From NCBI GenBank assembly GCA_028702315.1, contig JAQVPA010000005.1, positions 1-50,006 on the forward strand: a stretch of DNA of 50,006 nt, read 5' to 3'. The position numbers and the translations under genes were made by a program. Origin of the DNA: Candidatus Margulisiibacteriota bacterium (GTDB lineage: Bacteria; Margulisbacteria; WOR-1; O2-12-FULL-45-9; XYB2-FULL-48-7). The notes below the pieces were generated by a model. It had not been told where the DNA came from, searched no databases, and saw only the letters and a list, made by a program, of their open reading frames with translations. Below, piece by piece: positions 5,081-47,222 of the stretch. The stretch's first letter is position 1. Every line of letters begins with the position of its first letter.

Positions 5081-5506
5081 ATGGGATTGGAATCAAATAA
5101 CAAATATCAAGCAACAAATGACAAGCAATACCAAAATAACAATGACCAAAATACAAAACGGTATGATCTGGAAGAGAGAACATTAAAATATGCCAGGGGA
5201 GTAAGTATTTATGTTAGTAGAATGCCGCGAACGATTGTGAACATTGAAAACGGCAAGCAATTAGTCCGGGCGGCTGGGTCAGTTGGCGCTAATTATATCG
5301 AGGCAAACGAAGCATTAAGTAAGAAGGACTTCATAATGAGGGTCAAGATCTCCCGCAAGGAAGCCAAAGAGAGCCGCTACTGGCTTAACCTAACCGAACC
5401 CGATCAGGCCAACAATCAAACAAAAGAGATGTTGATCAATGAAGCGACCCAATTGATTAAAATACTCAGTTCGATCTTGGTTAAGTGTGGAGTTGTGAAG
5501 TACTAA
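5081..5506 (+). CDS. Four-helix bundle protein (S23/IVP family, TIGR02436-type), copy 1
   Basis: 141 aa; LVRAAGSVGANYIEANEALSKKDFIMRVKISRKEAKESRYWL. N-terminal Asn/Gln-rich leader lies in repeat-like sequence. Confidence 0.88.
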   Translation: MGLESNNKYQATNDKQYQNNNDQNTKRYDLEERTLKYARGVSIYVSRMPRTIVNIENGKQLVRAAGSVGANYIEANEALSKKDFIMRVKISRKEAKESRYWLNLTEPDQANNQTKEMLINEATQLIKILSSILVKCGVVKY

Positions 5507-5509
5507 CCA

Positions 5510-5806
5510 ATGTAAATTACAAAAAACAAAATACAAATAACAAACAAATTAAAACATCCAAATTACAATCTTAAAACGTTTAAAGAATTGATGCTTGCGA
5601 TTTTGGTATTGTTTGTTTTTTGATATTTGGTGCTTGTTATTTCGGGTTCTGTTTGCTTTTGGGATATTAATGTAAATTACAAAAAACAAAATACAAATAA
5701 CAAACAAATTAAAACATCCAAATTACAATCTTAAAACGTTTAAAGAATTGATGCTTGCGATTTTGGTATTGTTTGTTTTTTGATATTTGGCGCTTGTTAT
5801 TTCGGG
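5510..5806. repeat. Two near-identical direct copies (5510-5646, 5670-5806; period 160 bp) of an imperfect palindrome
   Basis: atgtaaattacaaaaaacaaaatac...ttttggtattgtttgttttttgatatttgg[t/c]gcttgttatttcggg repeated; one substitution seen (5631 T vs 5791 C). Confidence 0.95.
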
Positions 5807-5860
5807 CTAAATCCCTTGTTCTTCTATAAACATAATAGTAAAATACAACTGGAGTTGATC

Positions 5861-6295
5861 ATGAATAAAGTAGAAATGTTCGACCTAATGCGTTCCAACC
5901 CCGCCTTCCATCTGGCTACAGCAGAAGGCGACCAGCCGCGCTGTCGGGGGATGCTTCTCTACCGCGCTGATGAGAACGGCATTATTTTTCACAGCGGCAC
6001 GATGAAGAGTCTTCATCAGCAGATCGTAGCCAATCCTAAAGTTGAGCTCTGTTTTAATGATTATAAAAATGGGGTTCAGGTGAGGGTTACGGGGAAGCTG
6101 GAGATTGTGGAAGATAAAGCGTTAAAAGATGAAATATACAATTCTCCTTCGCGCGGCTTCTTGAGGCAGATGCGGGAATCAGGGGCTTTTAAGGATTTTG
6201 ACGGCAGTTTTAAGGTTTACCGTTTAAAAGGGGGCAAAGCTGTTTGGTGGACATTCGCGACCAATTTTGCACCCAAAGTGGAAGTGGTATTATAA
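5861..6295 (+). CDS. Pyridoxamine 5'-phosphate oxidase-like FMN-binding protein
   Basis: Start taken at MNKVEMFDLMRSNPAFHLATAEGDQPRCRGMLLYRADENGIIFHSGTMKSLHQQIVANPKVELCFND; split-barrel PPOX family. ORF track begins at 5780, inside/adjacent to the repeat. Confidence 0.82.
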   Translation: MNKVEMFDLMRSNPAFHLATAEGDQPRCRGMLLYRADENGIIFHSGTMKSLHQQIVANPKVELCFNDYKNGVQVRVTGKLEIVEDKALKDEIYNSPSRGFLRQMRESGAFKDFDGSFKVYRLKGGKAVWWTFATNFAPKVEVVL

Positions 6296-6364
6296 TAATC
6301 TCCACGTTTAATCCCATTCATGATAAGCTTGTTTGGGAGATTAGAAGGGAGTATAATTAATCAT

Positions 6365-6589
6365 ATGGTTCCAGATGAAAAAAGGTTAAAAGATGATTTT
6401 CAATGGCTGATCAGTAATTCCTCGATCTTACAGCAAAAGAACGCTGGAAAATTTGTTGCTATTGTTAACAGAAATGTAGCTGGCCTTGGTGAAACAGCTA
6501 AAGAAGCTTATGATCAGGCGAAAAAAGCCTATCCTGACAAAGAACCTCTCTTGGATATCATCCCGGAAAAAGAATTTCTACTTCTATGA
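6365..6589 (+). CDS. Small DUF5678-like protein
   Basis: MVPDEKRLKDDFQWLISNSSILQQKNAGKFVAIVNRNVAGLGETAKEAYDQAKKAYPDKEPLLDIIPEKEFLLL; overlaps the start of the downstream protease-like gene (6586). Confidence 0.6.
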   Translation: MVPDEKRLKDDFQWLISNSSILQQKNAGKFVAIVNRNVAGLGETAKEAYDQAKKAYPDKEPLLDIIPEKEFLLL

Positions 6590-6987
6590 TCGATTTCTCC
6601 TGGCGGGAAGATCTTTCCGAATCGTTTGGAAAAGTTAAAAGGCCGGTCGCTGAAATATTTGTCAAGGATAAGGCTGGGAATTGGCGCGCTTTGACAATGA
6701 TTGTCGACTCGGGAGCAGATGCTTCGGTTATAAATCGGAGTTTTGGTGAACTTTTTGGCCATGATTTAGAAAAAGGCAGGCCAATTAAGATCAAAGGGTT
6801 TGGGGAACAGGAAATCGCCGCTTATGTCCATAATATGAGACTTAAAATAGGCGAAGATGAACTTGATGCTAAAGTTGTTATCGCTGATATAGAAAAAGGG
6901 CCGAATGTTTTAGGTCGCAAGGATATATTTAATGTTTTCGAGATCCAATTTAAAAATATTGCCGAATGCACCCGCTTTATAAAATAG
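6586..6987 (+). CDS. Retropepsin-like (clan AA) aspartyl protease domain protein
   Basis: MIVDSGADASVINRSFGELFG (DSGA motif) and later IADIEKGPNVLGRKDIFNVFEIQF (LGRD/LGRK-type second motif). Confidence 0.75.
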   Translation: MIDFSWREDLSESFGKVKRPVAEIFVKDKAGNWRALTMIVDSGADASVINRSFGELFGHDLEKGRPIKIKGFGEQEIAAYVHNMRLKIGEDELDAKVVIADIEKGPNVLGRKDIFNVFEIQFKNIAECTRFIK

Positions 6988-7032
6988 TCCCATAGCCCCT
7001 TAGCCCCATTCCCCAAGTCCCTCCCCTCAATT

Positions 7033-7115
7033 CTTCGCCGCTAACTGGCGGGATCTCGTCGCTTTGGGAGAGAATAGAGTAACGCGTTACTCGCTACTCT
7101 ATTCGCGTTACTTCC
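7033..7115. repeat. Dispersed palindromic element copy B, upstream of ORF6N gene 2
   Basis: ggcgggatctcgtcgctttgggagagaatagagtaacgcgttactcgctactctattcgcgttacttcc; same flanks as copy A but lacks the internal ~50-bp segment. Confidence 0.85.
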
Positions 7116-7163: not shown

Positions 7164-7676
7164 ATGGACAAACTAATCCCAATCGAAAGGATTGAGAACC
7201 AGATATTTCAGATCAGAGGCCAAAGAGTGATGTTGGACAGGGATTTGGCCGACCTTTACGGGGTGGAAACCAAATATTTAAACAGGCAAGTCAAACGCAA
7301 TATCGCCCGTTTCCCTAAAGAGTATATGTTTCAACTAACGCCTCTGGAGAAAACCGAACTGGTGACAAATTGGCACCGGTTCGAACTGTTAAAGCATTCA
7401 ACTTCTCTACCCAATGCATTTACAGAACATGGTATAGCCATGTTATCAGCTGTCTTGAATAGTACCCGAGCTGTAAAAGTGAGTATCATGATAATCAATG
7501 CCTTTATTCGGCTCAGGAGGTCATTTGCCAGCCATAAAGAATTGGCTGTCCAGATTGCAGAGTTGAAAAAGATCGCCGGTAAGCATGATCTTGAGATCAA
7601 CGGCATTATCAAGCTCCTCCGCAAGCTGATGGAGCCGGTTAAGACGGAGGCGATTGGGTTTCGGGTGGGGAAGTAG
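7164..7676 (+). CDS. ORF6N domain-containing DNA-binding protein (copy 2)
   Basis: 170 aa; IFQIRGQRVMLDRDLADLYGVETKYLNRQVKRNIARFPKEYMFQLTPLEKTELV...AFTEHGIAMLSAVLNSTRAV. Confidence 0.92.
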   Translation: MDKLIPIERIENQIFQIRGQRVMLDRDLADLYGVETKYLNRQVKRNIARFPKEYMFQLTPLEKTELVTNWHRFELLKHSTSLPNAFTEHGIAMLSAVLNSTRAVKVSIMIINAFIRLRRSFASHKELAVQIAELKKIAGKHDLEINGIIKLLRKLMEPVKTEAIGFRVGK

Positions 7677-8160
7677 GGGCCAGGGACTGGGGACTAAGGG
7701 GCTAGGGGGCTACGGATTATGAAAGAGTTTACGGAATTAAGAGTTTGGCAGGAGGGGAAGTCGATAACGGTTAGTATTTACAAATTAACCGAAAAATTTC
7801 CTGGGCAGGAGAGGTTTGGCCTGACCGATCAATTACGTCGCGCGGCGAATTCGGTTTGCGCCAATATTGCCGAGGGTTTTGAGCGTTACCATACTAAGGA
7901 CAAGATACGGTTCTATTATCTGGCGCGAGGTTCGGCGGCGGAATGTAAAAGTCATCTTCTTATAAGTAAGGAACTCGGTTATTTATCGGAAGAAACGACA
8001 AAAAATTTGATAGAACAATGTTCCGAGATAGGCAGAATGATCAATGCGATGATCACGGCGATTAGGGAGTAAATTGGGATTGGGTGCTGGGTATCGGGTG
8101 CCGGGTATCAGGTGCCTATTGCTCCCCGATACCCGGCCCCTAGTCCCCAGTCCCTTCCCC
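7677..8160. repeat. Inverted-repeat arms flanking four-helix bundle gene 2
   Basis: Left arm agggactggggacta at 7682-7696; right arm tagtccccagtccct at 8141-8155 is its exact reverse complement; further (ct/cc)gggtatc words at 8085-8135. Confidence 0.85.
7719..8072 (+). CDS. Four-helix bundle protein, copy 2
   Basis: 117 aa; LRVWQEGKSITVSIYKLTEKFPGQERFGLTDQLRRAANSVCANIAEGFERYHTKDKIRFYYLARGSAAECKSHL: diagnostic family signature. Confidence 0.95.
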   Translation: MKEFTELRVWQEGKSITVSIYKLTEKFPGQERFGLTDQLRRAANSVCANIAEGFERYHTKDKIRFYYLARGSAAECKSHLLISKELGYLSEETTKNLIEQCSEIGRMINAMITAIRE

Positions 8161-8208
8161 AAAGCATTCCCCATTGCCCCCTCTCAATAAAAGGGGTAAA
8201 ATTTAACT

Positions 8209-15012: not shown

Positions 15013-15171
15013 ATGAATAATAAACTCCTCGGCTCCCTTCTTCTCGCCCTCGCACTCGCCGTTTTGGCCGGCTTCCTGGTCAAGCATTGGCTCTACTGGG
15101 AGATCGTGGATGTTTTGGTCATTATTATTTGCGGCGCCGCGGGGATTTATTTGATACGCAAAACTAGATAA
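15013..15171 (+). CDS. Small membrane protein (52 aa)
   Basis: MNNKLLGSLLLALALAVLAGFLVKHWLYWEIVDVLVIIICGAAGIYLIRKTR; two hydrophobic segments; below the track's length cutoff. Confidence 0.5.
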   Translation: MNNKLLGSLLLALALAVLAGFLVKHWLYWEIVDVLVIIICGAAGIYLIRKTR

Positions 15172-15312
15172 AAAATCTAAAATCGAAAAAAGAAAATCTA
15201 AAAAAATCCCAAATTACAAAATCGAAAGACGAAAAGAAGTTATTTGGAATTTAGTATTTTAGGTTTTCGAATTTGTTTAGACTTTCGATTTTAGTTTTTC
15301 GATTTTATTTAG
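15172..15312. repeat. Imperfect palindrome of AAAATCGAAA / TTTCGATTTT words
   Basis: aaaaaatctaaaatcgaaaaaagaaaatc... opposed by ...gactttcgattttagtttttcgattttattt. Confidence 0.8.
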
Positions 15313-15328
15313 TGGCTGAAAGGAGGAA

Positions 15329-15745: not shown

Positions 15746-16008
15746 TCCTGAAGCCGGAAGTTAGGATTAAGGAGTAGAAACCGGTATAGAAGCCAGAAAT
15801 TAGAAGTGGAAGTTGGACTGGCATCTGGTTTCTACTTCTAATATCTATACTGGCATCTATGCCTTAATCCTTACTTCCATTCCCCCCCGAGGCCAGAAGC
15901 CAGGATAAAGGAGTAGAAACCGGTATAGAAGCCGGAAGTTGGAAGTGGAAGTTGGACTAATTTCTGGCATCTATTTCTAACATCCATACTGGCATCTAAT
16001 CCTTAATC
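15746..16008. repeat. Tandemly duplicated imperfect palindrome (period about 139 bp)
   Basis: ggagtagaaaccggtatagaagcc at 15771 and again at 15910; each followed by reverse-complement-like actggcatct...ccttaatcctt words. Confidence 0.88.
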
Positions 16009-16629
16009 CTATTTTCTCCTCCTAAAATCTTGCCAAACCTCACGCAGTCGGTACAACTGCCGACCAGCTTGATCGTAGATGGCTAATAGTTTATTACATA
16101 ATATCGGATCAATGTAATTAGAATATGCATCGCGGCATTGTGAGAGACCAACTGATGTTTCATTAGTTTCAGCCATCGCGTCATCAAGATATTTGTGAAA
16201 TCCTTTATATTGATGTTTTTTAGCATATCCTTCGGCAATTAATCTTGGCACCGCTTTGCACGATCGCCGCAGTTGATCCGCTAAATCAAATTTTTCTTCT
16301 TTCGGCAGCTTTGGTAATAATTTGGTTAAAATTTCAATAGAAGCGGTGTAAGTTATCTGAAAAACCCTTAAGTCGTGATAACTTTTTATAGGTTCTTTCT
16401 TCTGGTTTTCATCCTTGCTTTTTATCTCATGAGGTTGGATGTTGGGTTTAAGGTTCGGATGCCAGTATGGACGTTTGATTTTGAAATTAGAGGTTAGATC
16501 TAATTTCTGGTTTCCATTCCCAGCTTCCATACCGGCATCTATGCCCAAATCCTTTATTCCAACTTCAACAATCCCATTTCCAGCTTCCATACTGGCTTCC
16601 ATGCCTAAATCCTTATTTCTTGCTTCCAT
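16009..16629 (-). CDS. Four-helix bundle protein, copy 3, with repeat-encoded N-terminal extension
   Basis: Core: YHDLRVFQITYTASIEILTKLLPKLPKEEKFDLADQLRRSCKAVPRLIAEGYAKKHQYKGFHKYLDDAMAETNETSVGLSQC. N-terminal ~70 aa is an internal duplication; true start may be downstream. Confidence 0.85.
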   Translation of the reverse strand: MEARNKDLGMEASMEAGNGIVEVGIKDLGIDAGMEAGNGNQKLDLTSNFKIKRPYWHPNLKPNIQPHEIKSKDENQKKEPIKSYHDLRVFQITYTASIEILTKLLPKLPKEEKFDLADQLRRSCKAVPRLIAEGYAKKHQYKGFHKYLDDAMAETNETSVGLSQCRDAYSNYIDPILCNKLLAIYDQAGRQLYRLREVWQDFRRRK

Positions 16630-27166: not shown

Positions 27167-27237
27167 CTGGGGGACAGGGATTTGAACCCCGATACGCAGC
27201 TCCAGAGGCTGCAGTCCTACCGTTAGACGATCCCCCA
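27167..27237 (-). tRNA. tRNA-Gln (anticodon CUG)
   Basis: Reverse complement TGGGGGATCGTCTAACGGTAGGACTGCAGCCTCTGGAGCTGCGTATCGGGGTTCAAATCCCTGTCCCCCAG: 7-bp acceptor, GCAGC-CUCUGGA-GCUGC anticodon arm, GGTTCAAAT T-loop; CCA not encoded. Confidence 0.93.
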
Positions 27238-27242
27238 ACATA

Positions 27243-27700
27243 AGAAATGACTAATTACTAATGACTAATGTCTAAGTAATGTATTTTATCATTAATTATT
27301 TTGATTTACGAATGATTGCTGCCAGGATCAGAATTATTTCCTTGCATTCAATGATTAATTGCTCCACTTCTTTTTTATTTTCTTCATTATGAAGAAATTC
27401 AGCCCCCTTGATAACCTCAAGCCAATATTCAGTCTCCTGAGCTTCTTTTTTTGAAATGAAGACTTTATTAATAAAATCTTTACGGGAACTGGCCGAATCC
27501 GCCTCTCGCATATTTGCTCCGATGGACGTGGCACTTCTTAATAGTTGCTTGCAAATGATTCTCAAGGAGAGATCCCTGGATATTTTCCTGACTAATTTAG
27601 CAGCTCTGATAGCGAAGTTTAACGTTCTGTCTTGGATTTCCATTTAATAATACCGAAGGATTCCTTAATTAGTCATTAGGAATTAGTCATTAGTCATTTT
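27243..27700. repeat. Inverted word-repeat arms flanking four-helix bundle gene 4
   Basis: Left aaatgactaattactaatgactaatg (from 27245); right ttaattagtcattaggaattagtcattagtcatttttt (27666-27703), reverse complement aaaaaatgactaatgactaattcctaatgactaattaa. Confidence 0.85.
27296..27643 (-). CDS. Four-helix bundle protein, copy 4
   Basis: 115 aa; IQDRTLNFAIRAAKLVRKISRDLSLRIICKQLLRSATSIGANMREADSASSRKDFINKVFISKKEAQETEYWLEVI. Confidence 0.95.
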   Translation of the reverse strand: MEIQDRTLNFAIRAAKLVRKISRDLSLRIICKQLLRSATSIGANMREADSASSRKDFINKVFISKKEAQETEYWLEVIKGAEFLHNEENKKEVEQLIIECKEIILILAAIIRKSK

Positions 27701-27937
27701 TTAGTACGGCAGCTTCCACCACTGTGGTTGAAAGACCAAGATAAATAATCCCCAAAACACTATAAAGATCGCTACCCCGATAAAAACTAGGAATCCACCC
27801 TTAAGCGGCTCCTTCCACCGGACATTCATGTAGAGCGCGAAGAGCAGGGCGGCCAGGCCGACCACCGCTGTCATGCCGCCTTTAAAAAGCGGGCTCATAT
27901 TCGTAAATTGAATGATCTTGATTCCCCATTCGCTCAT
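27701..27937 (-). CDS. Small membrane protein (about 78 aa)
   Basis: MSEWGIKIIQFTNMSPLFKGGMTAVVGLAALLFALYMNVRWKEPLKGGFLVFIGVAIFIVFWGLFILVFQPQWWKLPY; start moved to the internal Met. Confidence 0.55.
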   Translation of the reverse strand: MSEWGIKIIQFTNMSPLFKGGMTAVVGLAALLFALYMNVRWKEPLKGGFLVFIGVAIFIVFWGLFILVFQPQWWKLPY

Positions 27938-31759: not shown

Positions 31760-31960
31760 AATGTTTCAAAAAAGGCGACAAAGGCATTTGAAGGCCTGGG
31801 AAGGCTATTAGCGGCTTATGGCTGAAAGGGCGATAAAGGGCTGATGGCTATAATGGCGGGAAAGAAGCCATCAAAGCCTTTTTTGCCCTAAGCCTTTTTT
31901 GCCCCTGCCTGCCGGCAGGCAGGTTCTCAGGCCCTCATGGGCCTTCATCGCCTTTTCCCA
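31760..31960. repeat. Word-palindrome island containing CCTGCCTGCCGGCAGGCAGG (31904-31923)
   Basis: aaaggcgacaaaggcatttgaaggcctgggaaggct... opposed by ...aagccttttttgccctaagccttttttgcc...aggccctcatgggccttcatcgcctttt. Confidence 0.75.
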
Positions 31961-32266
31961 TAAAGGATATACATCAAACGCCGGCTCCTCATACGGGTGA
32001 GCCTTTTTCAATGCAGCCATAACCTTTTTGAGGTCTTTACCGGCAACAATGGTTTCCAGTCGTACTTCCTTAACGCGGGCCAGTTTTCCGATCTTGCCAA
32101 TATGCGGTTTAGCGCCTTTAAGGGGACGGAATGTTCCTGTTCCAACGGAATAAAAGGTGCAACTATCGTATTTGCCGCCGATCTTGCCGGCGCCGGCGGC
32201 GCAAATCGCGGCGCGGACCTTTTCCAGATAGGAGAGAGGGATAAAGACAATTAGTTTAATAATCAC
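31871..32266 (-). CDS. NIF3/CutA-like fold protein; C-terminal tail repeat-encoded
   Basis: IIKLIVFIPLSYLEKVRAAICAAGAGKIGGKYDSCTFYSVGTGTFRPLKGAKPHIGKIGKLARVKEVRLETIV...KKAHPYEEPAFDVYPL; tail KAHEGLRTCLPAGRGKKGLGQKRL. Confidence 0.85.
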   Translation of the reverse strand: MIIKLIVFIPLSYLEKVRAAICAAGAGKIGGKYDSCTFYSVGTGTFRPLKGAKPHIGKIGKLARVKEVRLETIVAGKDLKKVMAALKKAHPYEEPAFDVYPLWEKAMKAHEGLRTCLPAGRGKKGLGQKRL

Positions 32267-35200
32267 TTAATGAGATTCTTTTCCAGACAGCGGTTCCAGC
32301 TGGCCCACCTGTAGTGCAAATATAAATGTAATTGGCGTCAGCGGCTATTTCCCATTGTGTCCCCGCGGTGGATGACTCGCCTGAACCGACTGGCGTCAAG
32401 TTCCGGATAACGACGTTACTTGAAGTCGCTGTGGAAGCGCTGGTCTGGATTGTCCCGTCAGGGAATTTAACGCCGCCCAGAGTGGTTTCGATCGTACCGG
32501 CGACGGTTAACAAGGAATTTGGTTCAGATGATCCAATTCCAAGTTTCCCATTTGGGACTAAAACATTTCCGGTTGTTGATGAGGTTGATATAATTTTAAG
32601 CATCGGTTTTGTTCCATCAATGCTTCCCCCATGCCAACCAGTTTGGAATACAATTTCGCCAACTTCAGACCCATCAGTAATAGTAGAAAGTGCTCCACCG
32701 AACAATCCAGCATATGTGGAGTTTCCAGCGGAGTCAGGTGCTTTAAAATAGAAAGCAGGACCGGTTCCGGCAGCAGGAGTAGTGTTTGTTACTTCAAGGT
32801 TGGCTGCTCCAACTTTAATATTAGGGGTACTATAACTAGTTAGACTTCTTGTTATTTGTAGTACAGGGAAAGTGGATTTAGTAATAGTTAATTGTCCGGT
32901 CATTGTATCACCGGCTTTTAGGACTTTAGTCGAGTCGGTGGCGGTGACATTGGTGAGGGCAGCGCCGTTGCCGGAGAAGGCGGCGGCGGTAACTGTGCCA
33001 GTGGTATTGATCTGGATGTTACTGGCCAGTTTTGCGCTGGTTACAGCCGCATCCTTGATCTTGGCTGTTTCAACCGCGTCAGTGGCTAATTGAGTTGCGG
33101 TGACTCCGCCAGCATCGATGGAGATTGTGCCGGTCCCCGTGATCGGGCCGCCGGTCAAACCGGTGCCGGTGGCGACGGAGGTGACGGTGCCGGTATTGCC
33201 GGTATAAGCAGTTGTTTGAATATTGCCGTCGGGAAATTTAACGCCGCCCAGGGTGGTTTCGATCGTGCCGGCAACTGTTAGTAATGATCCTGGTTCTGAC
33301 GAAGCAATGCCAATATTTCCAGTTGCCCTGATCCTCATTCTTTCGGTGGCAACTGAAGCGCCAGTGCCAGTATAATAAATTAGATCAGTTGGTGCGGCTG
33401 TAGAAGTAACAGTCCCGTTAATTTTCCCTAAAATAAATGCTGACATATACCCAGTCCAGCCAGAACTAACTCTGGGATAATAACCAATCCTATTTATTTC
33501 ATCGCCATTGTTTACTGTTGTTGGAGACGCATAAACTCCTCTGGCTTTTCTTAAATTAAGGAATGAACCTTGAGAAGTGTTCACGTAATCATCTAAATAC
33601 AATATATTTTGAGCCGCACTGCCATATATCTGAAAAGAATTAATATTACTAATAATGCTGCCAGTATAATTAATATTAGAGGAAAGTTTGTCACCGGTAA
33701 CCGCCTCATTACTAATCTTTGCAGTGGTGACGGCATTGTCAGCTAATTGCGTTTCGGTGACTCCGCCAGCATCGATGGAAATCGTGCCGGTCTCGGTGAT
33801 CGGCCCGCCGGTCAGGCCGGTACCGGTGGCTACGGAAGTGACTGTGCCTGAGCCGGAGGCAGCGGTTGTTTGGGTTGTCCCGTCAGGAAATTTAACGCCG
33901 CCCAGGGTGGTTTCGATCGTGCCGGCTACGGTCAGCTTGGAGGCGGGTTCAGTAGAGCCAATGCCCACATTACCAGTATTATTAATCGTCATTCGAATTG
34001 CGCCAGTTGCTGTGTTGACAGCGTAGCCAGTATAAAATCTGATATGCGTGGCGGAATCGTAACTTGCCGTTCCGCCGCCAAACTCAATTATATTTAGGCC
34101 AACTAGTGCCGAGCCCCTGATCAGCGACCAATATCCATTAGCGTTTGAATATTGTCTGCTAATTAATGGGGCATATTTCGCTGTTGCGTCAGCTGTCGTA
34201 GAAGAAATATCTAACCATCCTATCCTATCACCGGTCTTGAGGACTTTGGTGGAGTCGGTGGCGGTGACATTGGAAAGGGCAGAGCCGTCGCCGGAGAAGG
34301 CGGCAGCGGTGACGGTGCCGGTGGTCTCAATGTTGATATCGGTAGCAAGTTTGGCTCCGGTGACCGCCGCATCTTTAATCTTGGCAGTTTCAACTGCATC
34401 GGAGGCGAGCAGGGTGGCAGTAACGCCGCCGGCATCGATCGAAATAGTGCCAGTGCTAGTGATCGGGCCGCCGGTGAGGCCGGTGCCGGTGGAGACGGAG
34501 GTGACAGTGCCGGCGTTGCCGGTGTAAGCAGTTGTTTGAATATTGCCGTCGGGAAATTTAACGCCGCCCAGGGTGGTTTCGATCGTGCCGGAAACGGAAA
34601 TCGGGCCATAAACATTTGTTAAAGCCGTAGCAATCCTCATTTTCTCTGCCCAGCCGCTGGTGTAAAAACGGATGTCGGTACCAGCTTGGTCAGCAGCGAT
34701 GCCAATACCAGTTGATGTCCCACCGTAATCATCAAAGCCCATTAAAATTAGCCTGTTTCTTAAATAAGAGGCCGGGTGATTGTTGCCGAATACCGCCAAG
34801 GTTCCGTTTATTCCCGTACTGTTAGCGAAATTCAAGAAAGCGCCGTTAGTTGCACTGCTTCCATTATTTATGTTTTCGATCTCGATCCCCATCGGCCCAT
34901 CAACATTATCGTATACATGAAGCTTACCAGCTGGATCGTTGGTCCCAATGCCGACATTACCAGTAACCAGTAAATTGCTTTCTGCAGTCAGCGTTCCGGT
35001 CATCGTATCGCCGGCCTTGAGGACTTTTGTGCTGTCGGTGGCGGTGACATTGGAAAGGGCAGAGCCGTCGCCGGAGAAGGCCGCCGCAGTGACGGTCCCG
35101 GTGGTATTGATGCTGATGTCGCTGGCCAGTTTCGCGCTGGTTACAGCCGCATCCTTAATCTTGGCTGTTTCAACCGCGTCAGTGGCTAATTGAGTTGCGG

Positions 35201-38200
35201 TAACGCCTCCAGCATCGATGGAGATCGTGCCGGTCCCAGTGATCGGCCCGCCGGTGAGGCCGGTGCCGGTGGAGACGGAGGTGACAGTGCCGGCGTTGCC
35301 GGTGTAAGCGGTGGTTTGAATATTGCCGTCGGGGAATTTAACGCCGCCCAGAGTGGTTTCGATCGTGCCGGCGACGGTTAAGGTTGAGGCAGGTTCAGTT
35401 GTTCCAATACCAACCTCGCCGACTAATAATGTTCCCGTATAATTACCTTGAGTACCACTGCCGATAGCGAGTTTCCCTGCGGCATAACGCGAAATGCCAA
35501 TATCTTTAGTCCCATTATAAGCAGAAGTATTGCACCAGGAAATTAATCCTGATGTCCCATACTGTAACGAGTTAAAAGACATATACTGTCGGCTTAAACC
35601 AACATCAGGATTAAAGCCGGGCGCAGAAATCAATCCGTTGGAACTGACATAAGCCGACCCGCCATTTCCGATCCACCTTTGTAATTGAGCTGATTGCCCG
35701 CTTGCGCTTTGAACATATATGCCGACTGTTGTTGCGGTGGCTGGACTGACTTGCAATTGCGCGGCCGGTTCCATCGTTCCAATGCCGACATTGCCAGTAA
35801 CCAGTAAATTGCTTTCTGCAGTCAGCGTTCCGGTCATCGTATCGCCGGCTTTGAGAACTTTAGTGCTGTCGGTTGCTGTTACATTTTCTAAGGCAGAGCC
35901 GTCACCGGAAAAGGCCGCCGCAGTGACGGTGCCGGTAGTATTGATCTGGATGTCACTGGCCAGTTTCGCGCTGGTTACATTGGCATCCTTGATCTTGGCA
36001 GTTTCAACCGCGTCAGTGGCTAATTGAGTTGCGGTAACTCCGCCAGCATCGATGGAGATTGTGCCGGTTCCCGTGATCGGCCCGCCGGTAAGGCCGGTGC
36101 CGGTGGCGACGGAGGTGACGGTGCCGGTCCCAGAGGCGGCGGTGGTTTGAGTTGTTCCATCAGAGAATTTAATACCGCCGGTGCCGATAGTTTCAATCGT
36201 GCCGGTAACAGTCAGTTTTGCAGATGGTTCAGTTGTTCCAATACCGACTTTGCCATCAACCCATAACTCGCCCGCTGGCACATTATATGTTTCTCCTACT
36301 GGATTAGCGGCCCCACTATTAAAATAAACTCCAGTACCCCAGAAAAATTGACCATAATTTGAACCAGCAAAGTCTTGAGAAAATCCTCTTGTGCCCGAAC
36401 CCTGCCTAATAAAAGTTAAGCCATTCCCAATGCCCTCAAATTGAGCTCCTGAACTGCTTAATCTAACTCTTTCAGTTAAAACACTGCCATTAGTTCTAGT
36501 ATAAAAACCTAAACCAAAGGAATAATCACCAGAGGTAGCATTATCTTTGAGCATTTTTATTTTTGCTCCGATAGTGTTTGAGGTATCTGTATAATAACCA
36601 GTGAACGCCACGCTACCTCCGACACCCGCAGCCAATGGAGTGAAATCTTCCAGACTTACGCCTTCTTTCCCGTTTTGGCGAAGAATGGTATAAGCATTAG
36701 TATTCTTCATTAATAAGAATGTGTTGGCGGTAGAAGTTCTATTTAAGATAATTCCACCATCAGCGGATGAAATAGTTAATGGATAATTCTCATAACCGGA
36801 AACATCAGCACCAACTCTTAACTTAGTCCCTTTTACTGTGCCATTCACATCTAACTCTGTTTGCGGCTCCGCGGTTCCAATCCCTACTTTACCGTCTTTA
36901 ACTATCAAATCGGATGTATTTACGATCAATCCGCTGGCTGGCAGTTCCAGCGTGCCAGTCATCGTATCGCCGGCCTTGAGAACTTTGGTGGAATCGGTGC
37001 CGGTGACGTTGGTGAGGGCGGAGCCGTCGACCGCCGGAAGTTTTGCGTCCGTGTCAAGTTTAACGATTTTATTTGCTGTTGTCCCAGTATCGACGGCGAG
37101 GGCAGAGCCATTGCCGCCGGTTAACCCAGTTCCCGCGACGTCGCTGCCAAGCTTGGCGGCGGTGACGGAAGTGGCGGCTAATTGATCGGTGCCAACTCCG
37201 CCGGCGTCGATGGAGATCGTGCCGGTCCCAGTGATCGGGCCGCCGGTCAGGCCGGTGCCGGTGGCGACGGAGGTGACAGTGCCGCTGCCGCCAGCAGATG
37301 TTTGAATTGTTCCGTCAGTAAATTTAAGCCCGCCGCCGGAACCGGATGTTATTTCAATTGTCCCTGCTACTGATAGTTTTTGTGCCGGGCTTGTTGTGCC
37401 GATACCAACATTACCGTTAGCATTAATAGTGACATGGGCAGAAGAAGCTCCTCCTGCAGTCAGCAGTATTTTTCCAGCTGCAACATCGTTAAGGATGGAA
37501 ATGTTTCCAGCATTAGCATTATAAAAGCCTATATCATTAGCGGCCAGTGTTTTCCAGGTACCATAGCCGGAACCAATCTTAAACATTCTGGCCGAATAGC
37601 CCAAATTATTCTCCGCCCTAAACTCTGCAGATTGATTCCCCGTACTGCTTGTGTTTTTAATTCTAATTGCATGGGCGCCGTTCAGCCCTGTCCCGCTAAC
37701 GTCAATTATATAAGAAGGCTCGGAAGTTCCGACCCCAATCTTTCCATCTTTAACGATCAGGTCAGAAGCATTGACAATCAGTCCGTTGGCCGGGAGCTCC
37801 AGCGTTCCCGTCATCGTATCACCAGCCTTGAGGACTTTGGTGGAGTCGGTGGCGGTGACGTTGGAAAGGGCAGAGCCGTCACCGGAGAAGGCCGCCGCAG
37901 TGACGGTCCCGGTGGTATTGATATTGATGTCACTGGCCAGTTTCGCGCTGGTTACATTGGCATCCTTGATCTTGGCAGTTTCAACCGCGTCAGTGGCTAA
38001 TTGAGTTGCGGTAACGCCGCCGGCGTCGATGGAGATGGTGCCCGTCCCGGTGATCGGGCCGCCGGTGAGGCCGGTGCCGGTGGCGACGGAGGTGACAGTG
38101 CCGCTGCCGCCAGCAGATGTTTGAATTGTTCCGTCAGCAAATTTAAGCCCGCCGCCGGAGCCGGATGTTATTTCAATTGTCCCTGCTACTGATAGTTTTT

Positions 38201-40928
38201 GTGCTGGGCTTGTTGTTCCCACTCCGATATTACCGCTAGTTAAGAATGTCAATAATTCGGAAGAGTAAGAAGTGCCATTATAATTATATATTCCTAATCT
38301 ATTACTGCCGCTTGAGCCCCGATTAGAAAAATGCCAAAATTTAGTCCCTGAAAGCAAATCGAAAAAGCCAACCCTAGTGTTGTCGTCTGTGCCGAAGACA
38401 GAGCCGGCGTTTACGCCGTCGGAAACCACTTGAATTCCGTAATTTTCTCCGGACAACGCTAATTTCGTTCCGGAACCAAATAGGATGTTCCCATTATTTA
38501 GGATCGAGCCAGCTGTTGTTTCGCCGTTGTTACCGGTGAGAAATTGGATTGCGGCAGAGGTCGCGGTGCCATTGCCGGACGTCCCTTGCAGGCTTAGTGT
38601 GTTGGTAATTTCCGAACCACCAATTATTTTTAATCCAGTCGCGCTCCTATATAAATTTGTATCAGAACCGATATACAAACCGGTTGCGTCAAGTGTTAGC
38701 CGCCCTGTCATCGTATCGCCGGTCTTGAGGACTTTGGTGGAGTCGGTGGCGGTAATATTGGTCAAGGCCGAACCGTCGATGGCGGGGAGCTTAGCGTCGG
38801 CGTCGAGCTGAACGATCTTGTTGGCGGTGGTACCGACATCGACGGCGAGAGCGGAACCGTTACCGCCGGTGAGGCCGGTCCCGGCGACATCACTGCCAAG
38901 CTTGGCGGCGGTAACAGAAGTAGCTGCTAGTTGAGTTGTGCTGACGCCGCCGGCATCGATCGAAATAGTGCCAGTGCTAGTGATCGGCCCGCCGGTGAGG
39001 CCGGTGCCGGTGGCGACGGAGGTGACAGTGCCGCCAGTGCTGGTTGAAGAGACTTCGAGAGTTTGTCCGGTTTGAGTGATCGTCACGTTACTGCCGGGCT
39101 TCAGGTCGACATTGCCAGTCAGGCGGGCCGCTTCGGTAGAAGCGAAAGACAGCACCGCGGCGCCAGCGGCGACAGAAGATGCGGCGCCGCCTTTGCTGGC
39201 GGAAGCGGCGTAATTAAAATTGACTTTGGCGGAAGTGACAGCTTCGTCAGTTATTTTGGCGGTAGTAATTGCTCCGTCCGCAATAGTGGCGTTGATGTTG
39301 GTCAGCAAACTGCCGTCGACAGCTGGTATCTTCGCGTCGGCATCAAGCTTGAGTATTTTGTTTGCCGTGGTGCCGGAATCAACCGCTAAAGCTGATCCAT
39401 TGCCGCCGGTGAGGCCGGTCCCGGCAACGTCACTACCGAGCTTGGCGGCGGTAACGGAAGTAGCTGCTAGTTGAGTTGTGCCGACGCCGCCGGCATCGAT
39501 CGAAATAGTGCCAGTGCTAGTGATCGGGCCGCCGGTCAAGCCGGTGCCGGTGGCGATTTCAGTAACGGTGCCTGTTCCAGTTGCAGCGGTGGTTTGGATC
39601 GTCCCATCGGGGAATTTAACGCCGCCGGAAGTTGTTTCGATCGTGCCGGAAACGGAAATCGGGCCATAAACATTTGTTAAAGCCGTAGCAATCCTCATTT
39701 TCTCTGCCCAGCCGCTGGTGTAAAAACGGATGTCGGTACCAGCTTGGTCAGCAGCGATGCCAATACCAGTTGATGTCCCACCGTAATCATCAAAGCCCAT
39801 TAAAATTAGCCTGTTTCTTAAATAAGAGGCCGGGTGATTGTTGCCGAATACCGCCAAGGTCCCGTTTATTCCCGTACTGTTAGCAAAATTCAAGAAAGCG
39901 CCGTTAGTTGCACTGCTTCCATTATTTATGTTTTCGATCTCGATCCCCATCGGCCCATCGACATTATCGTATACATGAAGCTTACCAGCTGGATCGTTGG
40001 TCCCAATGCCGACATTACCAGTAACCAGTAAATTACTTTCTGCAGTCAGCGTTCCGGTCATCGTGTCGCCGGCCTTGAGGACTTTTGTGCTGTCGGTGGC
40101 GGTAATATTGGTTAAGGCGGAGCCGTCGACAGCGGGGAGTTTGGCATTAGCGTCAAGCTGGACGATCTTGTTGGCAGTAGTGCCTGTATCAACAGCGAGG
40201 GCGGAACCGTTGCCGCCGGTCAGACCGGTCCCGGCGACATCACTGCCAAGCTTGGCGGCGGTGACGGAGGTAGCGGCTAGTTTGGTGGTGGTAATGTTCA
40301 AATCCTTTATCTTGGCGGTTTCGACGGCGTCGGAAGCAAGTTTAGCGGCGGTGACCGCTTCATTCGAGATCATACCGGCTTCAACAGTGACGGGATCGGA
40401 GCCGCCGGTCATGTGGGAGGTAGAATGGGGGCCGGGGAGGATCGTGCCAATCACTTTACTGCCGGATACAGTGACGATTTTAGCATCAGTTACCGAGCTG
40501 TCGGCCAGCTTGGCGGTCGTGATGCTAGCATCGCCGACACTGTCGGCTGACGCCGCTTTAAAAGCGTAACCGACCGTGACGATCTGCGTGCGCGGCGTGA
40601 TGGTCTCGCCGCCGACGGTAATTTCAATATACCGCGCTGAAGAACTGAAGACCGATTCAGAAAGAGCGGTCGTTGAACCAAGCAGAACGCTAAAAACGCC
40701 CTGGCTGTCCGGGGTTATCTCGTGGCTTTCCGGTCCCCAGAGAAGGGTGCCGGCTGTGTCGGCATCGTAAATACTGAAGGTGACTGTTTTTGTCGAGGTG
40801 ACAGGGCTGCTGGCTGAATCGGTCAACCGGCCTTCATAAGCTATTTTTTCCGGTACGGCAGATAAGGCGGTGCCGGCAATTAATATTAATCCGCCCAGGA
40901 TCGCCAGGAACAGTTTCTTGTTTTTCAA
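32256..40928 (-). CDS. Giant secreted modular repeat protein (2,890 aa), fibre/tail-fibre-like
   Basis: N-terminal signal peptide; about nine GTVTSVATGTGLTGGPITGTGTISIDAGGVTATQLA...AKIKDANVTSAKLASD...DSTKVLKAGDTMTGTL modules interspersed with distinct NVGIGTTEP... inserts. Confidence 0.92.
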   Translation of the reverse strand: MKNKKLFLAILGGLILIAGTALSAVPEKIAYEGRLTDSASSPVTSTKTVTFSIYDADTAGTLLWGPESHEITPDSQGVFSVLLGSTTALSESVFSSSARYIEITVGGETITPRTQIVTVGYAFKAASADSVGDASITTAKLADSSVTDAKIVTVSGSKVIGTILPGPHSTSHMTGGSDPVTVEAGMISNEAVTAAKLASDAVETAKIKDLNITTTKLAATSVTAAKLGSDVAGTGLTGGNGSALAVDTGTTANKIVQLDANAKLPAVDGSALTNITATDSTKVLKAGDTMTGTLTAESNLLVTGNVGIGTNDPAGKLHVYDNVDGPMGIEIENINNGSSATNGAFLNFANSTGINGTLAVFGNNHPASYLRNRLILMGFDDYGGTSTGIGIAADQAGTDIRFYTSGWAEKMRIATALTNVYGPISVSGTIETTSGGVKFPDGTIQTTAATGTGTVTEIATGTGLTGGPITSTGTISIDAGGVGTTQLAATSVTAAKLGSDVAGTGLTGGNGSALAVDSGTTANKILKLDADAKIPAVDGSLLTNINATIADGAITTAKITDEAVTSAKVNFNYAASASKGGAASSVAAGAAVLSFASTEAARLTGNVDLKPGSNVTITQTGQTLEVSSTSTGGTVTSVATGTGLTGGPITSTGTISIDAGGVSTTQLAATSVTAAKLGSDVAGTGLTGGNGSALAVDVGTTANKIVQLDADAKLPAIDGSALTNITATDSTKVLKTGDTMTGRLTLDATGLYIGSDTNLYRSATGLKIIGGSEITNTLSLQGTSGNGTATSAAIQFLTGNNGETTAGSILNNGNILFGSGTKLALSGENYGIQVVSDGVNAGSVFGTDDNTRVGFFDLLSGTKFWHFSNRGSSGSNRLGIYNYNGTSYSSELLTFLTSGNIGVGTTSPAQKLSVAGTIEITSGSGGGLKFADGTIQTSAGGSGTVTSVATGTGLTGGPITGTGTISIDAGGVTATQLATDAVETAKIKDANVTSAKLASDININTTGTVTAAAFSGDGSALSNVTATDSTKVLKAGDTMTGTLELPANGLIVNASDLIVKDGKIGVGTSEPSYIIDVSGTGLNGAHAIRIKNTSSTGNQSAEFRAENNLGYSARMFKIGSGYGTWKTLAANDIGFYNANAGNISILNDVAAGKILLTAGGASSAHVTINANGNVGIGTTSPAQKLSVAGTIEITSGSGGGLKFTDGTIQTSAGGSGTVTSVATGTGLTGGPITGTGTISIDAGGVGTDQLAATSVTAAKLGSDVAGTGLTGGNGSALAVDTGTTANKIVKLDTDAKLPAVDGSALTNVTGTDSTKVLKAGDTMTGTLELPASGLIVNTSDLIVKDGKVGIGTAEPQTELDVNGTVKGTKLRVGADVSGYENYPLTISSADGGIILNRTSTANTFLLMKNTNAYTILRQNGKEGVSLEDFTPLAAGVGGSVAFTGYYTDTSNTIGAKIKMLKDNATSGDYSFGLGFYTRTNGSVLTERVRLSSSGAQFEGIGNGLTFIRQGSGTRGFSQDFAGSNYGQFFWGTGVYFNSGAANPVGETYNVPAGELWVDGKVGIGTTEPSAKLTVTGTIETIGTGGIKFSDGTTQTTAASGTGTVTSVATGTGLTGGPITGTGTISIDAGGVTATQLATDAVETAKIKDANVTSAKLASDIQINTTGTVTAAAFSGDGSALENVTATDSTKVLKAGDTMTGTLTAESNLLVTGNVGIGTMEPAAQLQVSPATATTVGIYVQSASGQSAQLQRWIGNGGSAYVSSNGLISAPGFNPDVGLSRQYMSFNSLQYGTSGLISWCNTSAYNGTKDIGISRYAAGKLAIGSGTQGNYTGTLLVGEVGIGTTEPASTLTVAGTIETTLGGVKFPDGNIQTTAYTGNAGTVTSVSTGTGLTGGPITGTGTISIDAGGVTATQLATDAVETAKIKDAAVTSAKLASDISINTTGTVTAAAFSGDGSALSNVTATDSTKVLKAGDTMTGTLTAESNLLVTGNVGIGTNDPAGKLHVYDNVDGPMGIEIENINNGSSATNGAFLNFANSTGINGTLAVFGNNHPASYLRNRLILMGFDDYGGTSTGIGIAADQAGTDIRFYTSGWAEKMRIATALTNVYGPISVSGTIETTLGGVKFPDGNIQTTAYTGNAGTVTSVSTGTGLTGGPITSTGTISIDAGGVTATLLASDAVETAKIKDAAVTGAKLATDINIETTGTVTAAAFSGDGSALSNVTATDSTKVLKTGDRIGWLDISSTTADATAKYAPLISRQYSNANGYWSLIRGSALVGLNIIEFGGGTASYDSATHIRFYTGYAVNTATGAIRMTINNTGNVGIGSTEPASKLTVAGTIETTLGGVKFPDGTTQTTAASGSGTVTSVATGTGLTGGPITETGTISIDAGGVTETQLADNAVTTAKISNEAVTGDKLSSNINYTGSIISNINSFQIYGSAAQNILYLDDYVNTSQGSFLNLRKARGVYASPTTVNNGDEINRIGYYPRVSSGWTGYMSAFILGKINGTVTSTAAPTDLIYYTGTGASVATERMRIRATGNIGIASSEPGSLLTVAGTIETTLGGVKFPDGNIQTTAYTGNTGTVTSVATGTGLTGGPITGTGTISIDAGGVTATQLATDAVETAKIKDAAVTSAKLASNIQINTTGTVTAAAFSGNGAALTNVTATDSTKVLKAGDTMTGQLTITKSTFPVLQITRSLTSYSTPNIKVGAANLEVTNTTPAAGTGPAFYFKAPDSAGNSTYAGLFGGALSTITDGSEVGEIVFQTGWHGGSIDGTKPMLKIISTSSTTGNVLVPNGKLGIGSSEPNSLLTVAGTIETTLGGVKFPDGTIQTSASTATSSNVVIRNLTPVGSGESSTAGTQWEIAADANYIYICTTGGPAGTAVWKRISLSDY

Positions 40929-45836: not shown

Positions 45837-45852
45837 GCGGATCCCTGTTCGA

Positions 45853-46030
45853 ATCCTCATCCCAATTTGAAACCAACTGGATATCATCATTAAAGCCCTT
45901 CTCCATCAGAGATGGAGAAGGGTGAGTTTAGTGTTAAATAAAGCTGTAAATTCACCCCTCTCCATTGTAAATGGAGAGGGGCTTAAACAAAGAATTTTGA
46001 TTAAAAGAAAATGAGAATAATTGGGGTGAG
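45853..46030. repeat. Nested palindromic element: two strong hairpins inside outer inverted arms
   Basis: Hairpins cccttctccatc-aga-gatggagaaggg (45896-45922) and cccctctccat-tgtaa-atggagagggg (45955-45981); outer arms tcctcatcccaatt / aattggggtgagga. Confidence 0.85.
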
Positions 46031-46041
46031 GATTTCCGGGA

Positions 46042-46602
46042 TTAGGCGAAAACCTCCGCGCTCTTGAACCCGGGGCTTTTCTGGTCTTTTTCTGAAACAA
46101 TAACTTCTTTGATCCCTTCAATTGGCCACTTAATGTTTATATCAGGGTCATTCCATAGAATCGTCCGTTCATCTTTCGGGCTGTACATGCCGGTACACTT
46201 ATATAGTACTTCGGTTCCATCTTCGAGAGCGAGGAAGCCGTGGGCAAAGCCGGGCGGCAGGTAAAGCATTCTTTTGTTCTCGCCTGACAATGTCTCCCCA
46301 TACCACTTACCGAAAGTTGGGGAACCCTTGCGGAGATCGATGCCGACGTCAAATATTTTGCCGCTGATTACAGAGACCAGTTTGCCCATCGCAGCAGGGT
46401 TGAGCTGATAGTGCATTCCCCGGACGACCCCTTTTTGGGAGCGGCTCCGGTTATCCTGCACGAAAACTTCATTAAAGCCGCATTCGGCAAAACTGTTCTT
46501 ATTATAGGTTTCCATGAAGAAACCGCGGTCGTCAGCAAAAGCTTTTGGTTCGATGATTAAAAGACCTTTTAGCGGAGCTGCACTAAATTTAAAATTACCC
46601 AT
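46042..46602 (-). CDS. rfbC: dTDP-4-dehydrorhamnose 3,5-epimerase
   Basis: 186 aa; GLLIIEPKAFADDRGFFMETYNKNSFAECGFNEVFVQDNRSRSQKGVVRGMHYQLNP...LYLPPGFAHGFLAL. Confidence 0.96.
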   Translation of the reverse strand: MGNFKFSAAPLKGLLIIEPKAFADDRGFFMETYNKNSFAECGFNEVFVQDNRSRSQKGVVRGMHYQLNPAAMGKLVSVISGKIFDVGIDLRKGSPTFGKWYGETLSGENKRMLYLPPGFAHGFLALEDGTEVLYKCTGMYSPKDERTILWNDPDINIKWPIEGIKEVIVSEKDQKSPGFKSAEVFA

Positions 46603-46633
46603 GTGATATAATTATATCACAATTGGCGAATGT

Positions 46634-46705
46634 GGCCCCATTGTCTAACGGTTAGGACGCGGCCCTCTCAAGGCCGAGGCCGGGGTTCGATTCCCCGTGG
46701 GGCTA
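46634..46705 (+). tRNA. tRNA-Glu (anticodon CUC)
   Basis: GGCCCCATTGTCTAACGGTTAGGACGCGGCCCTCTCAAGGCCGAGGCCGGGGTTCGATTCCCCGTGGGGCTA; CGGCC-CUCUCAA-GGCCG anticodon arm; CCA not encoded. Confidence 0.95.
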
Positions 46706-46859
46706 AATTTTGCTGCCTGCCTGCCGGTAGGCACGGCGCAAAATTTAAGAAGAAGAATTAAGGGGAAGAATGAAGGCAAGGTAAAATTCGGAATTTGATC
46801 GTTTGGCCAGCAGCAAAATTTCCTTATTTCTTCTCCTTACTCCTTCTCCTTAAAATTAG
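46706..46859 (+). repeat. tRNA-3'-adjacent palindromic element copy 2 with nested CTGCCTGCCGGTAGGCA palindrome
   Basis: aattttgctgcctgcctgccggtaggcacggcgcaaaatttaagaagaagaattaagg...agcagcaaaatttccttatttcttctccttactccttctccttaaaa. Confidence 0.8.
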
Positions 46860-46868
46860 GGATATAAT

Positions 46869-47222
46869 ATGGCATTCGATTTCGAGAAATTTCCGGTTTA
46901 TAGGTTATCCCTGGAATATGTCAGGGAAGCGGAGGAATTGCTAATCCAACTTGATTTGCCTAAAAATTCCCGTATTGCCGATCAATTATCTCGCGCCTCA
47001 CTGTCAATCTCTTTGAATATTGCCGAAGGCGCCGGCCGCTATAGTAAAGCCGACAAGAAACACTTTTATATTACTGCGCGCGGCTCGGTTTTTGAGTGTG
47101 TGGCTATTTTGGATGTTTTGTTAACAAAAGGCAAAATTGACCAGTCGATTCACTCAAAACAATACGCAATATTGGAAGAATTATCCAAGATGCTTTCCGG
47201 ATTGATTAATAGTCAGAAATAA
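46869..47222 (+). CDS. Four-helix bundle protein, copy 5
   Basis: 117 aa; FEKFPVYRLSLEYVREAEELLIQLDLPKNSRIADQLSRASLSISLNIAEGAGRYSKADKKHFYITARGSVFECVAILDVL. Confidence 0.95.
   Translation: MAFDFEKFPVYRLSLEYVREAEELLIQLDLPKNSRIADQLSRASLSISLNIAEGAGRYSKADKKHFYITARGSVFECVAILDVLLTKGKIDQSIHSKQYAILEELSKMLSGLINSQK

Follow-up and report, generated by a model that had tools for sequence, protein, structure and literature searches.

Mirrored word arrays around small four-helix-bundle genes: candidate minimal cassettes in a Margulisiibacteriota genome and in other bacteria

Related systems

In the 23S rRNA intervening sequence (IVS) of Coxiella burnetii, tandem GACAGAT heptamers of variable copy number are located just upstream of the start codon of a four-helix-bundle (4HB) gene; the element has a 28-bp terminal stem, and its excision by RNase III is reported (PMC4990558). 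The same paper describes a Xanthomonas protein as a homopentameric torus and calls S23p a family of no known function. The literature searched gives no function for either PF05635 or GxxExxY proteins.

The window, by which we mean the whole stretch of 50 006 nucleotides analysed here, contains five 4HB genes of this protein family. All five products match PF05635 (23S_rRNA_IVP) with 48.6–139.4 bits, above the cut-off of 33.8, and belong to PF05635/TIGR02436 (four helix bundle protein). As in the rRNA IVS, terminal inverted repeats enclose the gene in their loop (four of five genes in the window, nine of 15 in the genome), with tandem heptamers upstream. Unlike it, the cassettes stand between protein genes, their arms are degenerate word arrays and there is no sign of a selected sense-RNA stem. 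A cmscan of the window detected two tRNAs only and no rRNA, which places the five genes outside 23S rRNA.

REP/RAYT and MITE/transposase pairs also combine a gene-bearing locus with gene-less palindromes of the same vocabulary in the same genome. Here, unlike in REP/RAYT, the arrays are periodic, the vocabulary belongs to the gene copy, mobilisation by the protein is putative, and there is no HUH transposase: the 4HB proteins of the window match PF05635 and no RAYT (HUH/Y1) transposase. The STRR of cyanobacteria are heptanucleotide repeats. Such repeats are, like the 4HB arrays, abundant tandem 7-nt words of intergenic DNA with few vocabularies, but they are not known to flank genes of any one family as inverted pairs. 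TAACTGA repeats occur in Beggiatoaceae, Cyanobacteria and Bacteroidetes (PMC4679880); a term search of that paper found helix-bundle and S23 proteins unmentioned. The protein Avd of DGRs is a four-helix-bundle relative with remote sequence similarity (30 bits here, against an equivalog cut-off of 80), but framing arms are absent from Avd genes beside a reverse transcriptase (RT; two relatives). TRAP is an RNA-binding ring and ToxIN an RNA–protein ring. They share with the present loci the concept of an oligomeric ring and tandem short repeats adjoining the gene; the protein folds differ, the arms here are inverted on both sides, and binding is predicted.

Framed genes in the window and in its genome

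The preliminary description had placed five 4HB genes in the window, four of them with inverted arms or a palindromic island and the fifth with a palindromic element upstream only, and this arrangement is confirmed. The first gene (5081..5506, + strand) carries its upstream words within its own 5' coding end, which is made of CAAATAAC-type words (TRF arrays at 5099-5153). Its downstream arm region (5509..5806, +) consists of 1.9 tandem copies of a 160-bp unit which is in turn a word hairpin, and 5514-5615 pairs with 5701-5802 (score 34). The second gene (7719..8072, +) is the nearest to the family consensus (139.4 bits). Its downstream arm (8082..8165, +) is a GGGTGCCGGGTATC array followed by CCCTAGTCCCCAGTCCC; its upstream arm (GGGACTGGGGACTAAGGGGCTAG; 7670..7720, +) pairs also with 6984-7033, and an ORF6N gene (7164..7676, +) lies between these two word arms. 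In the third gene (16009..16629, - strand), the upstream arm encodes the N-terminal extension of the protein; the downstream arm region (15751..15998, -) consists of two tandem word hairpins (AAGGAGTAGAAACCGGTATAGAAGCC), and 15751-15879 pairs with 16436-16565 (score 41). The fourth gene, also a PF05635 match (27296..27643, -), is flanked downstream by AATGACT words (27241..27295, -), 4 bp from a tRNA gene, and upstream by ATTAGTC, the reverse complement words (27644..27703, -; score 30). U-versus-revcomp-D scores are 25, 22, 23 and 30 for these four genes, respectively, and 14 for the fifth (46869..47222, +). The latter has no matching downstream arm, only an upstream word hairpin (46741..46857, +) in which AAGAATTAAGGGGAAGAATGAAGG / CCTTATTTCTTCTCCTTACTCC occupy 46741-46779 / 46819-46857.

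Word hairpins are also found away from the 4HB genes. One precedes another ORF6N gene (4506..5051, +; GTAACGC words, 4360-4455), and three are gene-less: 2133..2251, with the CAAATNACAAA vocabulary of the first 4HB gene; 15150..15321 (AAAATCGAAAAACTA); and 31770..31956, with the AAGGC vocabulary of a 4HB gene on another contig (C3, L025).

The five 4HB genes outscore the 44 other ORFs of the window for inverted framing (p=6e-4). The genome carries 15 PF05635 4HB genes, and the background was an 821-kb sample of its 1.53 Mb that deliberately took in every contig known to have a 4HB gene, so that 4HB density exceeds the whole-genome value. A gene-framing inverted-repeat score of at least 22 was reached by nine of the 15 4HB genes and by three of 772 other genes (p=3.5e-15); the remaining six 4HB genes are below this score. 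The enrichment of word palindromes around 4HB genes, whose absence would have spoken against the preliminary description, is thus clear, and framing is specific relative to neighbouring genes. A de novo scan of the same 821 kb gave 40 inverted-arm clusters, against four in dinucleotide shuffles.

Heptad arrays themselves are widespread: one count gives 135 in the 821 kb, 13 of them near a 4HB gene, and in another 124 of 139 are more than 800 nt from any such gene. An array lies nearby for eight of the 15 4HB genes, compared with a mean of three (maximum nine) per 15 random small genes. An inverted partner is found for 11 of the 15 arrays near 4HB genes and for 14 of the 124 free arrays. The 4HB-specific trait is inverted pairing, not the presence of heptad arrays. 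Eight of the genome's own 4HB genes yielded a query array, and each vocabulary was shared with zero to seven gene-less arrays elsewhere; this is an over-representation (2.9 versus 0.66 arrays per query, p=0.001). The analogy with REP/RAYT pairs therefore holds for the gene-less arrays, but not for the transposase. Spelling does differ between copies, as had been claimed, but the vocabularies are copy-specific only in part, since the words recur at loci without a 4HB gene; to some extent this is the finding that the preliminary description had named as speaking against it.

Recurrence, period and vocabulary

Framing is seen again in a set of 80 loci drawn from GTDB, which span many phyla. This set was found with a narrower alignment, the broader one being too divergent for scanning, and is biased towards the core subfamily. 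The framing scores of 77 4HB genes exceed those of 602 neighbouring ORFs (p=7e-27), and several top-scoring 'control' ORFs are themselves other 4HB genes; 52 of the 77 are at or under the 95% level of these controls (23), some of which are thus 4HB genes. In 79 upstream flanks, the 99% null level is exceeded by arrays of period 7 in 48, of period 8 in 21 and of period 14 in 39, and by those of every other tested period in at most four. The period test and the lag spectrum both give 7, 8 and 14 as the only clear periods. The word length of 8–15 nt proposed earlier has to be revised: the unit is 7–8 nt, and units of 14 and 15 nt are doublets of it.

GxxExxY genes (PD-(D/E)XK) are framed likewise with a period of about 9, and framing is not exclusive to 4HB genes. 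The period thus goes with the protein family (7/8 or about 9), which upholds the proposed link between protein family and structure; within a family the period is fixed and the vocabulary free, and the claim of one architecture with different sequences is supported.

The more identical two proteins are, the more similar their vocabularies (0.20 rising to 0.73), in part by descent. The suggested covariance between 4HB phylogeny and flanking words is seen at close range, but is not significant across phyla (Mantel p=0.13). One genome (L373) carries two 4HB proteins that are 70% identical and have unlike words. With this pair and the cross-phylum result, a strict rule of one vocabulary per protein was rejected.

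A 4HB gene occupies one orthologous site in 43 of 90 Flavobacterium species. Both arms are of the same word class in all 34 of 34 cases; arms of the same species pair better than arms of different species (22.3 versus 16.7; none of 10 000 permutations as high), and the joint word change of both arms is a single event on the tree. The site also hosts a second 4HB subfamily, which uses words of its own (self 27, cross 10–11). The 4HB gene, CCAAGA hairpins and CCTCTCC hairpins are mutually exclusive here (43, 15 and 5 species, respectively), so different cassettes and hairpins alternate at one site. This series of 90 species, with or without the gene and with two subfamilies, constitutes a ready natural experiment.

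Possible explanations and mobility

4HB and unrelated nuclease-fold (GxxExxY) genes between mirrored word arrays seem to form a class of minimal cassettes that has received little recognition and is probably selfish. The framed 4HB genes are probably stand-alone relatives of the 23S rRNA intervening sequences, and their terminal arrays are probably the binding sites predicted for a pentameric 4HB protein. Such a framed gene is small and stands alone between two arrays in inverse orientation, each of about five 7–8-nt words. The 4HB protein, a homopentamer in crystals, would bind these arrays so that each word is taken by about one subunit; the period would stay constant because the protein sets it, and the letters could drift provided that both arrays follow. 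Slippage would lengthen and shorten the arrays. The pairs may mark the ends of the cassette and function in its spread, its excision or autoregulation; scattered single arrays may be relics or gene-less derivatives. The PDB relatives 2gsc and 2rld have five chains each. Arrays have about five words (medians 4.6 to 6.6), and the match with a pentamer is suggestive only, because the number varies (interquartile 4 to 11). Taken whole, with pentamer-bound arrays as the ends of a cassette, we give this explanation slightly less than an even chance. A wider class, whose small oligomeric proteins (4HB or GxxExxY) would read terminal inverted arrays through a ring-set spacing, with the period fixed per family, the spelling free and co-evolving per copy and the rRNA IVS as one niche, is a more doubtful extension.

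The arms might instead act as RNA, pairing in the operon transcript into a stem whose cleavage by RNase III would take out the 4HB part, as in the 23S rRNA IVS. The known IVS, of the same protein family, has an RNase III-cleaved terminal stem and heptamers, and of 67 GTDB 4HB genes that could be assessed, 53 point the same way as both of their neighbours and lie close to them, several being inside apparent his, sdh and fad operons. If a sense RNA stem were selected, an excess of G-U-compatible mismatches would be expected; in three sets of arms, the sense strand shows no such excess when G-U-compatible types are counted against A-C types (32 versus 67, 60 versus 46, 135 versus 170). The RNA stem was rejected as the selected structure, and we regard this explanation as unlikely. 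The arrays may also be operators, the pentamer binding its own DNA or mRNA and the cassette being a self-limiting passenger, a TRAP-like or ToxIN-like concept. Regular spacing and about five words suit a ring protein, and the arrays extend as far as the start codon and in some cases run into the stop codon, but neither the downstream reverse-complement array nor the gene-less hairpins with the same words are explained, and such autoregulation seems rather improbable.

That the genes are bystanders, inserting or surviving in hairpins of slippage-made, STRR-like heptad arrays because they are harmless there, agrees with the large number of arrays away from 4HB genes, with their occurrence near random small genes and with heptanucleotide repeats being a known abundant class (PMC4679880). 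It does not predict the specific inverted pairing near 4HB genes, the family-dependent period, which protein-independent slippage would not produce, or the agreement of arm words at one site across species, and we consider it quite improbable. The preliminary description had proposed slippage or template-directed growth, driven by the protein itself, as the origin of the repeats, and the results lend this no support. Templated or reverse-transcribed growth, an idea taken from Avd and its partner RT, could draw on a remote resemblance to Avd of DGRs (NCBIfam E 5e-7, under the cut-off). However, most arrays are remote from any 4HB gene, arms are absent around genuine Avd genes that adjoin an RT (self score 10), and no RT was detected in searches of the two genomes richest in 4HB genes (the window genome with 15 and G011 with 12). 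RT-dependent growth was rejected on the last two grounds, and repeat generation by the protein is extremely improbable.

The cassette explanation would connect the role of the IVS protein, the origin of copy-specific heptad arrays and the small orphan genes that recur in housekeeping operons. PF05635 and GxxExxY are common orphan genes to which framing with a family-specific period gives a shared biology, and the inverted word arrays lead to the physical hypothesis that a ring-shaped protein reads words at a fixed distance from one another, which is cheap to test.

A mobile element is recognised by the same unit with the same ends at two sites. This is the case for GxxExxY: two cassettes, 87% identical, occupy different intergenic sites, and their homology runs from arm edge to arm edge (L368). 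For 4HB, presence or absence is seen at one site, and homologies between different sites mostly end at the ORF and not at the arms; homologous 4HB units between unlike sites were therefore rejected. Many orthologous 4HB sites are vertically old, and the evidence for 4HB mobility is therefore indirect. ORF6N and GxxExxY genes share the framing habit of 4HB genes to differing degrees. ORF6N genes were rejected as a third framed family, only two of seven being above control; most ORF6N genes have a GTAACG hairpin upstream instead of framing.

4HB genes and their flanking arms in the source genome

The contig C16 (50,006 bases), all of which is contained in the window, belongs to a 1.53-Mb genome of 98 contigs that is 90% complete. 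All five four-helix-bundle (4HB) genes of the preliminary description (window 5081, 7719, 16009(-), 27296(-) and 46869) are present. They match PF05635 (23S rRNA-intervening sequence protein) at 48.6 to 139.4 bits, above the Pfam cut-off of 33.8; two, at 7719 and 16009(-), are also hits to TIGR02436 (four helix bundle protein), and Avd models match window proteins only under their cut-off. There are 15 PF05635 genes in the genome, and at least one in 18 of the 19 genomes of the same order. Two tRNA genes (window 27167-27237 and 46634-46705) lie 4 to about 40 bp from the start of two of the five cassettes, and the contig middle is dominated by a 2,890-aa ORF (window 32256-40928(-)).

Framing was scored for each gene as the best local alignment of the upstream flank with the reverse complement of the downstream flank, using ORFs called in 821 kb of the genome (the window and regions L023-L082). 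The median score is 11 and the 99th percentile 24. Of the twelve top-scoring genes, nine are 4HB genes; the other three are the ORF6N gene at window 7164, a GxxExxY gene and a gene next to a 4HB gene. The proposed enrichment of inverted arms at 4HB genes was confirmed: 9 of 15 score at least 22, compared with 3 of 772 other genes (p=3.5e-15), and 4HB genes also outscore other ORFs in the window alone (p=6e-4). De novo detection of inverted arms in the 821 kb gave 40 clusters, against 4 after dinucleotide shuffling. The arms of four window genes agree with the earlier account, and the gene at 46869 has, as claimed, an upstream hairpin only.

Word arrays also extend into the 5' coding end, giving low-complexity translated repeats (e.g. 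MEARNKDLGMEASMEAGNGIVEVG); such N-terminal extensions are found at window 5081-5170 and 16440-16629 and at loci L006, L012 and L093.

Framing in other genomes

The framing is real and wider than initially stated. For 43 4HB loci of the order, arms from one locus score 21.5 on average and arms from two loci 12.6; the off-diagonal 95% level is passed at 27 of the loci. Scanning GTDB genomes yielded 80 4HB loci from many phyla, with a median framing score of 21 against 13 for 602 neighbouring ORFs (p=7e-27), several top-scoring 'control' ORFs being themselves other 4HB genes. Some arm pairs can be read by eye (GGTCGTAGGTCATAGG opposite CCTATGACCTACGACC; AGGGTCTTAGGGTCTTAG opposite CCCTAAGACCCT). 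In Bacteroidota other than Flavobacterium, and in Planctomycetes, housekeeping runs that read, from their translations, as his, sdh and fad contain 4HB genes; at each position framing is kept and the words are unlike between species. Among histidine-biosynthesis-like genes of these groups, the cassettes occupy several distinct junctions (L168, L200, L205, L213, L164, L173, L207, L177, L199). At L174, L179 and L147 the ORF end overlaps the downstream array, one of whose words contains the 4HB stop codon.

The same intergenic site was compared across 90 Flavobacterium species, 43 of which carry a 4HB gene there. For the main subfamily, own arms score 22.3, species-swapped arms 16.7 and shuffled arms 7.7; none of 10,000 permutations reaches the own-arm score. 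The word class (CTAAG or CAAAG) is the same in both arms in 34/34 cases. On the tree this agreement traces to a single joint switch, so it counts as one event, not 34. A second subfamily, about 30% identical, is found at this site too and uses GTTTAAA words (self 27, cross 10-11). Of the sites that lack a 4HB gene, 15 carry a CCAAGA hairpin and 5 a CCTCTCC hairpin; the others have different sequence, which includes word hairpins with no gene and solo arm remnants. Neither named hairpin accompanies a 4HB gene (0/43).

A non-heptad hairpin class, CCCTCACCC...CCCTCTCCC, is repeated in the source genome. Non-heptad or CCTCTCC hairpins are located at L078:5081, L070:7072, L044:8065, L071:2583 and L081:6580, and in L264, L283, L296, L303 and L310.

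Period, pairing and vocabulary of the word arrays

Autocorrelation of 4HB flanks is elevated at lags of 7 and 8 nt and at multiples of these (z of 8 to 16 at 7 and 8). Among 79 GTDB upstream flanks, arrays exceed their own 99% null at period 7 in 48, period 8 in 21 and period 14 in 39; any other tested period does so in at most 4. Arrays contain about five words, and the spread around the medians (4.6 to 6.6) is wide. Only two relatives have solved structures, 2gsc and 2rld, each with five chains, and the Xanthomonas protein has been described as a homopentameric torus (PMC4990558). On this basis, each subunit of a 4HB pentamer may read one word.

Heptad arrays are pervasive in the 821 kb, with 135 at period 7/8 versus 0 to 7 at other periods, and only 13 of the 135 are near a 4HB gene. 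An array is nearby for 8 of 15 4HB genes, against a mean of 3 for 15 random small genes. Specific to 4HB genes is that the arrays pair in inverted orientation: of 15 arrays close to such genes, 11 have an inverted partner no more than 1.5 kb away, versus 14 of 124 others. Vocabularies of the genome's own 4HB genes recur in a mean of 2.9 free arrays and foreign 4HB vocabularies in 0.66 (p=0.001), as expected if the genes and scattered arrays belong together.

Covariation of protein and words is partly upheld. Vocabulary similarity rises from 0.20 below 30% identity to about 0.4 at 60-70% and 0.73 above 80%; the cross-phylum correlation is not significant (p=0.13), so descent may explain the rise.

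A hairpin of GTAACG words is inserted in the leader of 5 of 7 ORF6N genes (L017, L019, L020, window 4360-4455 and 7075-7115), and these words recur elsewhere, among other places at window 23971-24001. Another leader hairpin, TGGYAATAANNTTGCT, is short and conserved and precedes 4HB, ORF6N and ssb-like genes (window 16671(-) and 7122(+); L069:2287, L071:7600, L072:17688, L025:5311, L024:574, L078:19442); a ribosome-binding site often follows it, it has no Rfam match in the window, and it is preceded by CGAGATTTCGTC in two loci.

Origin of the arrays and related cassettes

A conserved stem in sense RNA should tilt arm mismatches towards G-U over A-C types. G-U is not favoured (G-U:A-C 32:67, 60:46 and 135:170), which gives no sign of a maintained sense RNA stem; on these mismatches the arms appear to behave like DNA-level inverted repeats. 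The preliminary description suggested the protein as maker or maintainer of the repeats; the role of maker is not supported. Neither the window genome, with its 15 4HB genes, nor genome G011, with 12, yielded a reverse transcriptase, and genuine Avd genes adjoining such an enzyme gene have no framing arms; reverse transcription is therefore an unlikely source.

The nearest described system is the 23S rRNA intervening sequence (IVS). That of Coxiella has an S23p-family ORF, a 28-bp terminal stem and, 5' of the start codon, tandem GACAGAT heptamers whose copy number varies by strain (PMC4990558); CPR bacteria have rRNA insertions with PF05635-type ORFs (PMC11270868). Our search of the open-access literature found no paper connecting word arrays with 4HB or GxxExxY genes of the stand-alone type, which is weak evidence. 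The loci are best read as IVS-like minimal cassettes, a class whose ends are inverted word arrays and whose word spacing would be dictated by the encoded protein, putatively through binding of the arrays.

GxxExxY proteins (TIGR04256; Pfam PD-(D/E)XK superfamily) form a second framed family. For 46 genes the self score is 26.5, versus 12.5 off-diagonal, and 32 exceed the off-diagonal 95% level. Their upstream flanks have period 9 in 18, period 8 in 7 and period 7 in 1; the downstream peak is wider (14 at 9, 11 at 8, 9 at 10). Period 9 is unlike the 7/8 of 4HB genes, so the period depends on the protein family. Locus L368 contains two cassettes, 87% identical, at different intergenic sites; their homology ends at the outer arm edges, which defines the unit as arm-gene-arm. 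In another genome, GxxExxY paralogues 95-97% identical have common words and those 40% identical do not; words also differ between two 4HB genes, 70% identical, of one genome. L364 (G188:C1:785500-805400) and L365 contain tandem and dispersed GxxExxY copies, 95-97% identical, within about 8 kb, with CGCAGATT words in common.
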